Assembly: GCA_013286165.1 (NCBI GenBank)
Contig: JABDGF010000005.1
Span: forward strand, 1-64,000
Length of the DNA: 64,000 nt
Origin: Acidobacteriota bacterium
GTDB taxonomy: Bacteria > Acidobacteriota > Terriglobia > Acidiferrales > UBA7541
Reading direction: 5' to 3'
Every line of letters begins with the position of its first letter. Position 1 is the first letter of the stretch. Shown piece after piece: positions 54,763 to 61,708 of this stretch. The position numbers and the translations under genes are program-made. Under the pieces are notes generated by a model. It was not told where the DNA came from, did not search any database, and saw nothing but the letters and a program-made list of their open reading frames with translations.

Positions 54763-57582
54763 ATGAATGACAGTCTGCGAATGCGACTCGGTGCGGTGCT
54801 TCTGGCACTGCTGACCCTCGCCGCCGTCATTTTCGCCTTCCTGAATTTCCAGCAGCGCAGCCGCTACGTTCAGGCAGATGACGGCGTCACCTGGATGGAC
54901 TCCACTTCCGGCGTCACCGCCTGGCACGTGGTCGCCGATTCGCCCGCCTCCAAAGCCGGCATCAAGGAAGGCGACGTCGTCGAGACCGTTCGCGGCGTTC
55001 CTGTCCACCGCAGCACAGACGTCACGAAAGTTCTGTTCCGCGTCACGCCCTGGACCGAGATCCGCTACCAGCTTCGCCGCGACAATCGCACGTTCGAAAC
55101 TCCCGTCGTCACCGCACCTCAAGACACCGGCAATTCCATCGACGACTATCTGCGCATCACCGCGCTCCTTTACCTCTTCATCGGCCTTTTCATTTTCGTC
55201 CGCCGGTGGAACGCGCCGCGCGCCGTCCATTTCTACGTCTTCTGCCTCGTCTCGTTCATCCTTTACAGTTTCCACTACACCGGCAAGCTGAACGCCTTCG
55301 ACTGGAAAATTTATTGGGGCAACGTGATCGCGCTGCTCCTGCAGCCCGCGCTGCTCGTTCACTTCGCACTCGTTTTCCCGGAGCGCCGCGGCACCCTCTG
55401 GCCCAAGCTCCTCGCGGTTTACACGCCGCCCGCCGCGCTGCTCACGCTGCATATCTTCATCGCCACCGGCACGCTCGACTTTTTGCCCTCGATCACCACG
55501 CAGCGCTGGCTCGATCAAATGGAGCTTGCCTATCTCGGCGCGTACTTCCTGCTCGCGGCCGGAATTTTCCTCGCGAGTTATTTCCGCGCTCCCAGCGGCG
55601 TCCTGCGCCAGCAGCTCAAGTGGGTCACCGGCGGCACGTTCGCCGGCATCACGCCGTTCCTGCTTTTCTACATCGTTCCGTTTTTCTTCGGCTTCGTCCC
55701 CTCATCCTGGATGAAGGTCTGCGTCTTCTCGCTCGCGCTCATCCCGCTCTGCTTCGGCTACGCCATCATTCGCTACCGCTTGATGGACGTGGACATCATC
55801 TTCAAGCGCGGCCTCTCGTACACATTCGCGACGGCCACCGTAGTCGGCATCTACTTCGCCATCATCGCGATCATCGGCGAAATGGCGCATCGCCCGGGTC
55901 TTTCCACTGGCCCCGCCGGCGCTGTGATCGCCATCGTTGTCGCCGCGTTCTTGATTGAGCCACTCCGCGTCGGCGTGCAAGCGCGCCTCGATCGCTTCTT
56001 TTATCGCGATCGCCTTGACTACCGCCGCACCCTGATCGAATTCGGCCGTACGCTCACCAACGAAGTCCGCCTCGAGCCGCTCGTCGCCTCCGTGCTCGAC
56101 CGCGTCTCGCAAACGCTGCTCGTCGATCGCCTCGCGATCTTCCTAGAAGACGAATCGAATCCCGGCCACTTCGTGCTCTCGCGCTCCATGGGAGTTCGCC
56201 CCGAAGGCCCGCTCGATTTGAATTTCCTCGATCCGGCGAATCCCGCGCTCCAGAGCGGCTGCCTGTTTTTCGAATCTACGCGCGCGGCCGCCGACCTGCA
56301 GCCTTCCGTCCGCCGCACGCTCGAAGAACTCGACCTCAATTACTTCATCGCCTGTCGTTTCCGCGAACGCGTCGTCGCCGTCCTCGGCCTCGGCAAGACG
56401 GTCGATGGCGACTACCTCTCGAGCGACGACCTTGAACTCCTCAGCACCATCGCCGGCTACGTCGCCATCGCTATCGAGAATGCCCGCCTCTACTCGTCGC
56501 TCGAGCAAAAAGCCGTGCAGATCGAGCGCCTCAAAGATTTCAGCGAAAATATCGTCGAGTCGCTCAATATCGGCGTTCTCACGATCGACCTCGAAGACCG
56601 CATCGAGTCCTGGAATCCGCAGATCGAAGATTTGCTCGCCGTGCCGCGCGCCGAAGCCATTGGCCGCAAGCTCGAAGACATTCTTCCCTCGGATCTCGTC
56701 GCCGAAATCAACGCGCACGCCTCAAGCGATCGCGTCGCCGGTATTTACAAATACCGCCTCAACGCGCGCTCGAATCGTCATCTCGTCGTCAATGCGTCCA
56801 TCGCGCCGCTCGTCGGAAAATCCGGCGCGCGCCTCGGCCGCCTAATCCTTCTCGACGACATCACGCAGCGCGTTCGCATGGAAGATCAGCTCGTGCAAAC
56901 CGAGAAGCTCACCTCGCTGGGCCTTCTCGCCGCGGGCGTCGCGCACGAAGTGAACACTCCGCTCGCCGTGATCTCGAATTACATCCAGATGCTCGCGAAA
57001 CAAATTCCTGCCGACGATCCGCGCCAGAAAACAATCGAACGCATCGTCAAGCAGACTTTCCGCGCCAGCGAAATCGTCAACAACCTTCTGAATTTCTCGC
57101 GCACCGGCGCCGCCGAATTCGTCGAAGTCGATATCAACTCCGTCCTCGAAGAAACTTTGACGCTCGTCCAGCATCCATTCAAGACGGCCCAAGTGAACGT
57201 GATCAAGAATTACAACGAAACGCTGCCCCCGGTTCTCGGCTCGATGACGCGCCTACAGCAGGTCTTCCTCAATCTTTTCATGAACGCGCGCGACTCCATG
57301 CCACAGGGCGGCATGCTTGAAGTCCGCACCGGCGCGCACAATGGCTCGGTCGAAATCGAAGTCACAGACACCGGATCGGGAATCCCGCCCGAACATTTGC
57401 AGAGAATTTTTGATCCGTTCTTCACCACGAAGTCCGTCGGCAAGGGCACCGGCCTCGGCCTCTCGGTGAGCTACGGAATTATCAAAGAACACGCGGGCAA
57501 AGTTGACGTCCGCTCCACGCCGGGCAAGGGCACATCCTTCCGGCTCGAATTTCCCGTAGCCAGGAAACCGGTCCATGCCTAA
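54763..57582 (+). CDS. Membrane histidine kinase: PDZ-like + multi-TM + GAF + PAS + HisKA/HATPase
   Basis: PDZ-like [28 protein letters not shown] block; [62 protein letters not shown]. Start placed at [10 protein letters not shown]. Confidence 0.92.
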
Positions 57583-59056
57583 GGGCACAATCCTCGTCGT
57601 TGACGACGAGATCGAAATCCGCGAAGGCCTCGAAGCCCTCCTGACTTCGGAAAGCTTCGACGTTACGCTCGCCGAAAATGGCGAAGCAGGCCTTCAGAAA
57701 CTCGAGGATCGCCCGTTCGATCTTTTGCTTCTTGACGTAAGCTTGCCCGGCCGCAACGGCATCGAACTGCTGCGCGAAATTCGCGCGCGCGATCCGCAAC
57801 TCGCCGTCATCTTGATCACCGCCTTCGGCTCCATCGATATGGCTCGCGCCGCATTCAAAGGTGGCGCGCAGGATTTCATCACCAAGCCGTGGTCCAACGA
57901 CGAACTCATCGCCACGGTCTCGCTCGCGATCGAAGGCCGCCGCCTCCGCGACGAAAACGTTCAGCTCAAGCGCGCCCTGAAGCAGCGCTACAACTTTCCA
58001 AACATCGTCGGCAAGAGCGACAAGATGCAGGCCGTGCTCGACCTCGTCACACAGGTCGCGCCGTCGCGCTCCACCGTTCTGCTCAGCGGCGAAAGCGGCA
58101 CCGGTAAAGAAGTCATCGCCAAAGCGATTCACTCCGCTTCCACGCGCACAGACAAAGCCTTCATCCCCATCAACACCGGCTCGATTCCCGTCGATCTTCT
58201 CGAATCGCAGCTCTTCGGCCACGTGAAGGGCGCCTTCACCAGCGCCGTCGCCTCGAAAAAAGGTCTTTTCGAAGTCGCCGACCAGGGCACAATTTTCTTC
58301 GACGAAATTTCCACCGTCAGCACCGAAACGCAGGCCAAGCTTCTGCGCGTCATTCAAGAGCGCGAGTTTATGCGCCTCGGCGGCACCGAAACGATAAAAG
58401 TCGACGTCCGCATTCTCGCCGCGTCCAACGAAGACCTCCGCAAGCTCGTCCGCGAAGGCCGCTTCCGCGAAGATTTGTTTCACCGGCTCAACGTGATCTC
58501 CATTCACTTGCCGCCGCTTCGCGAACGCAAGGAAGACATCCCGCTACTCGTCGATCGCTTCCTGAAGCAATATTGCCAGGACAACGGCAAGCCAGTTCGC
58601 ACGTTCACCAACGGCGCGATGAAGCTGCTCGTCGATTACGATTTTCCGGGCAATGTGCGCGAGCTCGAAAATGCCGTCGAACGCGCCGTTGTTCTTTCCA
58701 CGCAGGAACACATGGACGCGGACCTGCTCCCCGAAGCGATCCGCACGCGCGAAATCGTTCGCGGCGTCCGCCTGCAGCTCAATGAATTTCTGCCGTCGCT
58801 CCCGGGCGAAGCCGGCGGCCGCGAAACTTCTCCCTCTCTATTCGCCATTCTCGAGGAAGTCGAGCGCCGCATCATCGTGGACATGCTCGAGCGCACCAAC
58901 TGGAACCAGACCGAAGCCTCCGAACGCTTCCAGGTCCCGCTGAGCACGCTAAATCAAAAAATTAAACGCCTAGGCATCGAAACGCGCCGCCGCAACCCCT
59001 CCGCGCGCCCCTTCGACGACGACCCTCCCACCACCAACTTCGCCGCCAACTGCTAG
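57575..59056 (+). CDS. Sigma54-dependent response regulator (NtrC family)
   Basis: REC, GESGTGKEVIAKAIH, ELFHG-region GHVKGAFTSA, GTIFFDEIS, C-terminal Fis HTH; overlaps the HK stop by 8 nt. Confidence 0.95.
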   Translation: MPKGTILVVDDEIEIREGLEALLTSESFDVTLAENGEAGLQKLEDRPFDLLLLDVSLPGRNGIELLREIRARDPQLAVILITAFGSIDMARAAFKGGAQDFITKPWSNDELIATVSLAIEGRRLRDENVQLKRALKQRYNFPNIVGKSDKMQAVLDLVTQVAPSRSTVLLSGESGTGKEVIAKAIHSASTRTDKAFIPINTGSIPVDLLESQLFGHVKGAFTSAVASKKGLFEVADQGTIFFDEISTVSTETQAKLLRVIQEREFMRLGGTETIKVDVRILAASNEDLRKLVREGRFREDLFHRLNVISIHLPPLRERKEDIPLLVDRFLKQYCQDNGKPVRTFTNGAMKLLVDYDFPGNVRELENAVERAVVLSTQEHMDADLLPEAIRTREIVRGVRLQLNEFLPSLPGEAGGRETSPSLFAILEEVERRIIVDMLERTNWNQTEASERFQVPLSTLNQKIKRLGIETRRRNPSARPFDDDPPTTNFAANC

Positions 59057-59177
59057 TGGAATAGCCTGCCGCGCAGGCTGTCCTCCAACGACCACACCTC
59101 GACGTGAGATCACAATCGCGCGCGGACAAATCCCACAACGACACATTGCCTTCGTCTCACGAGCTTCTCCTACAACC

Positions 59178-59240
59178 CCGTCATCCAGCTTGTCCTGAGC
59201 GGAGCGAAGGGAGCGCCATTCACGGCCCGAAGGATCTTTC
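59178..59240. repeat. Single copy resembling the dispersed GTCATCCTGAGCGnAGCGAAGGATCT-type intergenic element
   Basis: CCGTCATCCAGCTTGTCCTGAGCGGAGCGAAGGGAGCGCCATTCACGGCCCGAAGGATCTTTC; resembles an intergenic motif I recall from many genomes. Only one copy seen here. Confidence 0.4.
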
Positions 59241-59289
59241 TTCTCTTTTGTAATTGCACAACAAGGCAGGCCAACCACTTCACTGCAAC

Positions 59290-59613
59290 CTACTTCGCAG
59301 ACGTCTCCAACGCCAACGTCACCCGCTTCAATTCCCGCACATCTCGAATACTCCACCCACTCCCCAACTCCCCCGTGAGCCGCGCATTCACCTCATCCAC
59401 GCTCAGTCCATTCACCGATGCGACAAACGCGCCCCACTCCTCCACTACTCGATTTCTCTCTTCCGCATTCGCATCCTCGCAAAACGCCCGCGCCGCCGCC
59501 GCCGGCGTTCCGTACTCATCCTCATAATCCTGATTCAAATACGCGCGAACGAATGCCCGCAACGCCGCAAACTGCTGCGCCTTTCCACTCGTCTCTTCCG
59601 TCATCGCGGACAC
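59290..59613 (-). CDS. CdiI-like immunity protein
   Basis: FVRAYLNQDYEDEYGTPAAAARAFCEDANAEERNRVVEEWGAFVA matches the pattern of CDI immunity proteins; overlaps the toxin 3' end by 13 nt. Confidence 0.75.
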   Translation of the reverse strand: MSAMTEETSGKAQQFAALRAFVRAYLNQDYEDEYGTPAAAARAFCEDANAEERNRVVEEWGAFVASVNGLSVDEVNARLTGELGSGWSIRDVRELKRVTLALETSAK

Positions 59614-60158
59614 TCCGGATACGCCGTCAACACGTAGAAATCATTCCCGCCATACGCCTTCAACACGATCAACGCGTCGTATGCCTGCACCGCCGTCGTC
59701 GATCCGCGCGCGATGCAGCGCCCCACTGGATGCTGCGGCGATCCGTGATAATCGATCACCAGATTCGGCTTTCGCCCGCTGCGATCGAGCCATCGCTCCA
59801 ATTTCGCGTTGTGCTCCAGCGCTTCGCCCACCGCTTCTTCTGCAGACGCGCGATCCGTCCAAGTGGACGACGCCGAAATATTTTCGTCCTGCAGCCGCTC
59901 GAGCAATTCTTGATCGCTGCGCCCCACATGCTTTCGCAGCGTGTGCCCGCCGTGCTGCTCGTCGATCTCCAGATTTCGCCGCGCGCCATGCGTCGACGAA
60001 CCGCGCGCCTCACTCTGCGCCGGCGTTGCAGCCGCACCAGAATTCGACGGCGTCCCAGTCGAACCGCCGCCACACGCCGCAAAGCTCGCGCAAGCAAACA
60101 GCACTACCGCCGAGAAAAAAGGAAGTGTAACGCCGCGAAGGGAAGTCGTGCGTTTCAA
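59601..60158 (-). CDS. Putative lipoprotein carrying a bacterial RNase A-like (CdiA-CT type) toxin domain
   Basis: Signal peptide with FAAC|GGGSTG lipobox-like site; LEIDEQHGGHTLRKHVGRSDQELLERLQDENISASSTWTDRASAEEAVGEALEHNAKLERWL ... VIDYHG...PVGRCIARGS...VLKAYGGNDFYVLTAYPE, matching bacterial RNase A-like toxin domains. Confidence 0.8.
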   Translation of the reverse strand: MKRTTSLRGVTLPFFSAVVLFACASFAACGGGSTGTPSNSGAAATPAQSEARGSSTHGARRNLEIDEQHGGHTLRKHVGRSDQELLERLQDENISASSTWTDRASAEEAVGEALEHNAKLERWLDRSGRKPNLVIDYHGSPQHPVGRCIARGSTTAVQAYDALIVLKAYGGNDFYVLTAYPECPR

Positions 60159-60176
60159 GCGCGTCGCCTCAAAAGT

Positions 60177-61109
60177 CTAAGCAGTCAGCGGCCGTCCCGC
60201 GATGTTTTCCAAAATGCGGTACGGTGCCACGTCCGGTGTCACCAGCGCGGCTGGTGGAATCAAAAAAGTCTGCTCGATCGCGTACTGGCCACTCATCACC
60301 GCGTGCGCCACACAGTCCGTGAACACAATCCAAGTCGCCAGCGGAGGAAAATCGATCTGCGTCTTCGGCGTATTCTTCTGAAAATCTGCATTCTCTTTCA
60401 GGTAGTCGTGAAAACGCAGCATGAACATGTCGTACGGCGAACGCACCGCCGACGTGAGCCCCAGCTTTGCGCCTAGATTCTGAACAGCGCGGCTGATCGC
60501 TGAATCGTCGTCCGCGATTTTCTCAAGCCCCGCCGTCTTAGCGAACTTACCTGCGATCGCGCCGAAGTTTTCTGTCGTGTTCCACACACGCGGCCGCGAT
60601 GGATTCAAATTCGTAAAAATCCGTAGGATGCGTCCGCCCCGCGTAGGCCGGCTCGGAAACGCATCCACGTGTAACAGGTCGTTACGTTTATGCAGCGGTA
60701 AATCCCGGCCTTCCTCTTCCAGCGGGCGGAAGCTCGCGAAATCCAAAATCCATTTATCTTTGTACGGGGAAAGAAACTTGCCGGCGAAATCGATCACTTG
60801 CGCGCTGTAGCTTCGGAAAATCTTCTGCAGCCGCTCCACCGTAGCGCTATCTCCGCTCACGCCGCGCAGCACATCCTCCGTCGGCCGGTAGGAAACGTTC
60901 TTGTGCATCCGCAGCTCGCTCCACTGCTGCTCGCGCAAGAATCGTTGATCGTCCGTTGAAAGCTGAAAGGGAAGTTCGCGAAAAAAAAGAATTTCTCCGC
61001 GCTCGAGCATCTCGCAGTACGCGCGCGAACGCGCTTCGCGCTGCTCGCCAGACGTCCATCCGCCCGGCGCCTTGTAATCTTCCACCTGAATCCAGGGAGC
61101 GTTGGCCAT
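60177..61109 (-). CDS. Kdo hydroxylase (KdoO)-like Fe(II)/2OG oxygenase
   Basis: LERGEILFFRELPFQLSTDDQRFL, KNVSYRP, DFASFRPLEEEGRDLPLHKRNDLLHVDAFPSRPTRGGRILRIFTNLNPSRPRVWNTTENF. Confidence 0.8.
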   Translation of the reverse strand: MANAPWIQVEDYKAPGGWTSGEQREARSRAYCEMLERGEILFFRELPFQLSTDDQRFLREQQWSELRMHKNVSYRPTEDVLRGVSGDSATVERLQKIFRSYSAQVIDFAGKFLSPYKDKWILDFASFRPLEEEGRDLPLHKRNDLLHVDAFPSRPTRGGRILRIFTNLNPSRPRVWNTTENFGAIAGKFAKTAGLEKIADDDSAISRAVQNLGAKLGLTSAVRSPYDMFMLRFHDYLKENADFQKNTPKTQIDFPPLATWIVFTDCVAHAVMSGQYAIEQTFLIPPAALVTPDVAPYRILENIAGRPLTA

Positions 61110-61168: not shown

Positions 61169-61708
61169 TTACGCCGGCCGCTTGTATCCCGGCGGCATCA
61201 ATGTCGTGCTTAGGTCGAGTCCCGAAAGATCCACGCCTTCGAGATTCGTCTCGCGCAGAATTGTCGTCCGCATCGTCGCGCCTGCAAACGTCGCGCCCTG
61301 AATTTTCGCATCACGGAAATTCGCAGCGCCCAAATCCGCGTTGCGGAAATTCGCGCCCGTGAAATCCGTGCGGAATAGTTCTGCGCCGCCCACTTTCGCG
61401 TCGCCCAAATCTGCTCCGCTCGCGTGCGCTTCGGTCAGGTCCGCTTTACGCAGGTCCGCGTTCTTCAGATTCGCCTTCGTCAAATCCGCCGACGAAAGCC
61501 GCGCATTATAAAATTTCGCGCCTTCCAGATTCGCGCCGATGAAGTTTACGAGGTCCAGGTTCATGTTCGTAAAGTCCACGCCGGAAAGTTGCGCGCCGGA
61601 AAGATCCGCGCGCGCGCCAGTCTCGTCGCCGCTGATAAATCGTCGGTGCTTCTCAATAATATCGGAAATGCGCTCGCCCTTATGTCGAACGCTGTTCGGG
61701 GTTCTCAC
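61169..61708 (-). CDS. Pentapeptide repeat protein
   Basis: Run of A(D/N)LXX repeats: LSGAQLSGVDFTNMNLDLVNFIGANLEGAKFYNARLSSADLTKANLKNADLRKADLTEA. Confidence 0.95.
   Translation of the reverse strand: MRTPNSVRHKGERISDIIEKHRRFISGDETGARADLSGAQLSGVDFTNMNLDLVNFIGANLEGAKFYNARLSSADLTKANLKNADLRKADLTEAHASGADLGDAKVGGAELFRTDFTGANFRNADLGAANFRDAKIQGATFAGATMRTTILRETNLEGVDLSGLDLSTTLMPPGYKRPA

Follow-up and report, generated by a model that had tools for sequence, protein, structure and literature searches.

On the reverse strand of the window, which is the whole 64,000-nucleotide stretch of DNA analysed here and comes from a soil acidobacterium, lie two adjacent genes that a preliminary description, made from the sequence alone, had correctly placed there. 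The upstream gene encodes a putative lipoprotein ending in an RNase A-like domain and the downstream gene encodes a small CdiI-like protein. Their features are as follows, in window coordinates.

59601..60158 (−): toxin gene, encoding a 185-aa putative lipoprotein with a C-terminal RNase A-like domain; TTG start, TGA stop
60167..60170 (−): GAGG, a Shine-Dalgarno-like motif 8 nt 5′ of the TTG, from reading the sequence
60075..60158 (−): predicted lipoprotein signal peptide, residues 1-28, MKRTTSLRG plus a hydrophobic core; from sequence, with the leader architecture kept in homologues
60072..60074 (−): putative lipidated Cys29, lipobox FAAC; cysteine invariant in the order
59952..60071 (−): low-complexity, unconserved linker, residues 30-69; from domain search and homologue comparison
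59616..59948 (−): RNase A-like toxin domain PF18431, residues 71-181; from profile match and fold
59928..59930 (−): putative active-site His77, aligned with H175 of CdiA-CT Ykris
59895..59897 (−): putative active-site Arg88, aligned with R186 of CdiA-CT Ykris
59625..59627 (−): putative active-site Thr178, aligned with T276 of CdiA-CT Ykris
59619..59621 (−): putative active-site Tyr180, aligned with Y278 of CdiA-CT Ykris
59290..59604 (−): immunity gene, CdiI_2 (PF18593), 104 aa; ATG start inside the toxin stop
59601..59604 (−): ATGA stop/start overlap of 4 nt, predicted translational coupling; from homologous pairs

Leader, toxin domain and immunity partner

The toxin protein starts with positively charged residues, which lead through a hydrophobic core to the lipobox; about 40 low-complexity residues and then PF18431 follow. 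The leader also holds an alternative lipobox (LFAC, Cys23). The short lipoprotein-type leader reported earlier is real, as a hydrophobic core is followed by the same cysteine in all eight homologues from the order of the window. We scored the leaders of 26 homologues with a simple rule (hydrophobic core plus lipobox) and found a cysteine after the hydrophobic core in about 21; the rule is imperfect, as by eye L021 (APAC) is lipoprotein-like and L024 is not, which leaves the count unchanged. Five homologues (L017, L024, L025, L027 and L047) carry an ordinary signal peptide or a transmembrane segment at the N-terminus instead. An N-terminal hydrophobic segment is kept in every homologue examined, while the cysteine and the domain are separated by about 34 to 75 residues of unconserved linker. 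The conserved trait is predicted export to the cell envelope, in most homologues combined with a lipid anchor.

The toxin domain matches PF18431 (RNAse_A_bac) over the full profile (positions 1-113 of 113) with 90.3 bits, compared to a gathering cut-off of 27 (E = 1.9e-25), and its partner matches PF18593 (CdiI_2) with 37.9 bits, compared to a cut-off of 26.7 (E = 3e-9). These searches against the toxin and immunity families, which the preliminary description had proposed, thus place both proteins above cut-off, with sequence matches far beyond chance. An AlphaFold (AF2) model of the toxin, built from 25 sequences (the window protein and its relatives, alignment A4), has a mean pLDDT of 96.1, and its best matches in the PDB are both toxin chains of 5e3e (Foldseek, E = 4.5e-11 and 2.1e-10, TM 0.80-0.88). 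The fold comparison, named beforehand as a possible refutation, upheld the RNase A-like fold (TM 0.80/0.87 to 5e3e_B, at about 32% identity). At the profile level, the toxin alignment matches 5e3e_B (E = 7.4e-23) and the immunity alignment 5e3e_A (E = 1.7e-7), each finding its own chain of this one crystal complex and no other PDB chain convincingly. The vertebrate-type RNase 7bfl matches the toxin model weakly (TM about 0.4), so the kinship with RNase A runs through the Yersinia toxin, which is also the literature basis for the RNase A-like label (PMC9086364).

The passage of that review on CdiA-CT Ykris gives H175, R186, T276 and Y278 as its activity residues. With a numbering offset derived from the four residue identities, these align with H77, R88, T178 and Y180 of the window protein, which are invariant in 25/25 homologues. 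Profile match, predicted fold and conserved putative active-site residues together bear out the RNase A-like toxin domain, and by its sequence the protein is a member of PF18431, presumably with RNase activity and toxicity.

The partner gene was rightly called CdiI-like, given its PF18593 match. Its product has no signal peptide by inspection and its model (pLDDT 88.5) is all helical, with the immunity chains 5e3e_C/A as best matches (TM 0.66-0.74). The 13-nt overlap first reported between the two genes rests on a GTG start at 59613 and has to be revised: of 24 homologous pairs, 19 have an overlap of exactly 4 nt between toxin stop and immunity start, mostly ATGA, so the ATG at 59604 is the likelier start and the overlap is 4 nt. 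Divergence of the toxin and of the immunity protein is correlated (r = 0.76, confounded in part by shared ancestry), and dN/dS values of 0.08-0.22 in two close pairs indicate purifying selection. The sequence evidence supports the PF18593 protein as the cognate, CdiI-like immunity protein, which would neutralize the toxin.

Distribution and genomic context

PF18431 is carried by 8 of 95 genomes of the order and by 18 of 396 sampled across the phylum. Within the order, CdiI_2 is confined to the same eight genomes, where it always adjoins the toxin gene, and neither family occurs alone; the window's own genus has the pair in two genomes. The named relatives come from metagenome-assembled genomes of Acidobacteriota (Terriglobia, Acidobacteriaceae, Candidatus Acidiferrum) and from one alphaproteobacterial one. 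No CdiI_2-like partner was recognized by eye in the downstream frames of the alphaproteobacterial homologue L047.

The surroundings of the pair in the window are as follows.

59057..60176 (−): inserted cassette, full extent between two convergent genes; from congener comparison
60177..61109 (−): Kdo hydroxylase (PF11004), flanking, outside the pair, 18 nt 5′ of the toxin start
57575..59056 (+): NtrC-type sigma-54 response regulator, flanking, convergent, outside the pair; from domain search

The Kdo hydroxylase and NtrC-type regulator genes are convergent and 59-174 nt apart in most congeners (L052-L054, L056, L057, L059-L061, L063 and L065, where both flanks were recovered), compared to 1127 nt in the window, where the gap holds the pair. 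In other genera, the pair stands beside unrelated genes. Given the short congener junction and the unrelated neighbours elsewhere, the pair is a cassette with a history of repeated gain or loss.

Further insertions and neighbours were seen around these loci. Downstream of its Kdo hydroxylase gene, L051 carries another insert at this junction, some 670 nt long, whose open frame encodes a His-rich protein with a signal peptide, and the junction between hydroxylase and regulator may be one that accepts insertions. Four relatives of another genus have the pair directly adjoining tRNA-Val(gac) (L010 9258-9334; L011 9691-9767; L014 9831-9907; L015 660-736), with a sigma-54 activator on the opposite side. 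Upstream of the Kdo hydroxylase, the window encodes a pentapeptide-repeat protein (PF00805, E = 8.7e-34; 61169-61708, minus strand), an order kept in L009. We found no flanking repeats at the cassette ends, no sigma-54 promoter motif upstream of 20 homologues despite the NtrC-type neighbours, and no sigma-70 promoter or convincing terminator that stood out at the pair.

A compact two-gene unit with coupled translation, inserted at different sites, could also be a selfish addiction cassette of the toxin–antitoxin kind, in which unexported toxin acts in the cytosol once the pair is lost and export is incidental. We consider this improbable, as the hydrophobic N-terminus of all homologues, with its lipobox in about 21/26, would remove the toxin from its target, the toxin-then-immunity order follows that of polymorphic toxins, and a profile search found no antitoxin-type DNA-binding domain. 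An RNase with a coupled inhibitor gene might also belong to an anti-phage or abortive-infection module. That role is very hard to reconcile with the data: PADLOC gave no match to the toxin and noise only for its partner, no neighbour genes are conserved in the flanks examined, and an exported toxin is ill-suited to sensing phage inside the cell. No phage homologue was found.

Delivery and proposed mechanism

The preliminary description had the toxin free of any CdiA, T6SS or Rhs carrier, and this held. PF18431 is the only domain that profile searches found in the 185-aa protein, which has no escort or translocation domain and is not part of a large CdiA carrier with a TPS domain. The T6SS sheath protein VipB (PF05943) is missing from all eight carriers of the order, while the Escherichia coli control and six other Acidobacteriota carriers were positive; a T6SS is therefore not required in general. 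CdiB-type ShlB (PF03865) was found in 0/8 order carriers, in a search where the control genomes likewise gave no match. As the window's own genome (G000) is only 55% complete, the argument from missing delivery genes depends on the carriers with more complete genomes (G010, 98%; G050, 97%; G041, 95%; G037, 91%).

Elsewhere, the same toxin domain does ride on such machines. On a Rhizobium tumorigenes plasmid (NZ_CP117264.1; L079 3482-5044) Hcp and VgrG of a T6SS cluster enclose the domain together with an annotated CDI immunity protein. In an acidobacterium (L028, G401:C7), a 2510-aa open frame, taken as Rhs-like by eye from its YD-type repeats, ends in an RNase A-like domain. Both carrier types, minimal lipoprotein and Rhs-like, thus exist in Acidobacteriota. 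A single toxin domain is found on several carriers, the minimal form among them, as is characteristic of polymorphic toxins.

We consider it probable that the pair is a cassette of an envelope-anchored RNase toxin and its cytosolic immunity protein, aimed at neighbouring cells. The toxin gene would yield a Sec-exported lipoprotein in which a lipid-modified Cys29 and a flexible linker hold an RNase A-like domain at the cell envelope, perhaps exposed on the surface; this domain would act independently of metal through His77, Arg88, Thr178 and Tyr180. The product of the translationally coupled immunity gene, small, all-helical and cytosolic, would cap the active site and so shield the producer from toxin made by itself or by a sibling. 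The toxin would most likely enter the cytosol of neighbouring cells and degrade RNA there, by a route independent of CdiB and T6SS; candidates are display on the surface, membrane vesicles, proteolytic cleavage of the linker with release of the toxin, and transfer of the lipoprotein.

Since an exported RNase is here co-translated with an inhibitor that stays in the cytosol, active toxin is to be expected in that compartment, whether ahead of its export or on arrival from a neighbouring cell. We favour the latter because of the mobility of the pair, its patchy distribution and its kinship with CDI and T6SS cargo. Co-occurrence within the order, conserved residues, ATGA coupling and the prevalence of the lipobox all count for a toxin/immunity cassette. 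Against an attack on neighbours counts that the protein has no receptor-binding or membrane-crossing domain, as does the number of PF18431 copies: multi-toxin arrays are typical of kin-discrimination systems, and here each genome has one or two copies and no such array.

The other source of cytosolic toxin would be the producer itself. The protein could be a periplasmic or surface RNase for nutrient scavenging or clearance of extracellular RNA, with the CdiI-like protein guarding the cytosol from unexported enzyme and no cell attacked. An enzyme that is simply exported could well have such a minimal leader and lack a delivery domain, no delivery partner is conserved nearby (no partner gene of any kind is, in the flanks of the homologues examined), and intracellular inhibitors of secreted RNases have precedent in barnase/barstar. 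Yet toxin domain and immunity protein form a cognate pair in a CDI system, the same domain sits in a T6SS cluster or an Rhs protein elsewhere, and a patchy distribution with unrelated insertion sites suits a weapon better than a housekeeping enzyme, so that we hold scavenging to be unlikely.

If neighbours are indeed killed, either a lipoprotein carries a toxin between cells with no dedicated machine, or there is an unrecognized delivery route outside the myxobacteria. The toxin and immunity folds are known, and the new part is a bare nuclease with a predicted lipid anchor and without a known delivery machine, kept with its partner across a phylum of soil bacteria in which antagonism has received little study.

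A second minimal layout was seen in three genomes of one acidobacterial genus (L083 1333-1851, L084 and L085; minus strand), which encode a short protein with a signal peptide and a bare EndoU nuclease domain (PF14436; matches at about 1501-1845). The gene is followed by a small one matching UPF0231/YacL (PF06062, E = 2.2e-6). From these matches, the two make up a second putative minimal exported RNase with a candidate immunity partner. A search with PF18451 for other toxins of the same layout gave no match, and had no positive control. We put forward only tentatively, as something that may well not hold, that Acidobacteriota have a class of leader-only interbacterial toxins, in which a bare toxin domain, joined only to a Sec or lipoprotein signal and paired with a cytosolic immunity protein, follows an unrecognized route without CdiA filament, T6SS or escort domain, its cargos being RNase A-like/CdiI_2 pairs and, separately, exported EndoU/UPF0231 pairs.

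Comparison with known systems

One of the nearest known systems is CdiA-CT/CdiI of Yersinia kristensenii (5e3e), with which the pair shares toxin fold, active-site residues, immunity fold and toxin-then-immunity adjacency. Whereas the Yersinia toxin is the C-terminus of a huge CdiA exported by CdiB, here there are only a lipoprotein leader and a 40-aa linker. Assignment to the CDI (CdiA/CdiB two-partner) systems was rejected, as there is no CdiA.

The same architecture is described by the NCBIfam model NF041883 (RNase_A_lipo, RNase A-like domain-containing lipoprotein), which matches 8/8 order homologues; the window protein scores 60 bits compared to a curated cut-off of 200, and so falls outside that curated family. 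As NCBI has a curated model for such proteins, the concept of an RNase A-like lipoprotein is already present in annotation. In our literature searches we found no paper that names PF18431 or links ‘RNase A-like domain’ with ‘lipoprotein’.

The preliminary description had likened the delivery to that of SitA, and a SitA-type toxin would be moved between cells by TraAB outer-membrane exchange. Lipobox (FAAC at Cys29, with lipidation predicted), disordered linker, C-terminal nuclease and an adjacent cytosolic immunity gene are indeed shared with SitA/SitI of myxobacteria (PMC5562445, PMC8546572). However, SitA families are defined by an escort domain of about 375 aa (PMC8546572), in place of which only 40 unconserved residues separate Cys29 from the toxin domain here, and SitA has been reported only from Myxococcales with traAB (PMC5562445), a different phylum. 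The TraA repeat (Myxo_Cys_RPT, TIGR04201) was found in 0/22 carriers, although no control genome matched either. We therefore reject membership in SitA, find the proposed kinship unsupported, and regard TraAB-mediated transfer as highly improbable.

Sec-exported (‘T2SS/Sec-dependent’) polymorphic toxins, as described by Zhang et al. (2012), and Neisseria MafB have a signal peptide, a C-terminal toxin and an adjacent immunity gene in common with the pair (PMC3482391). Those lineages carry constant N-terminal domains (MafB-N, APD1/2 and others), whereas here there is none and mostly a lipid anchor. The pair is thus most likely a minimal, stripped-down variant of a polymorphic toxin/immunity pair, with a predicted lipid anchor, putative toxicity and no known delivery machine attached to it.
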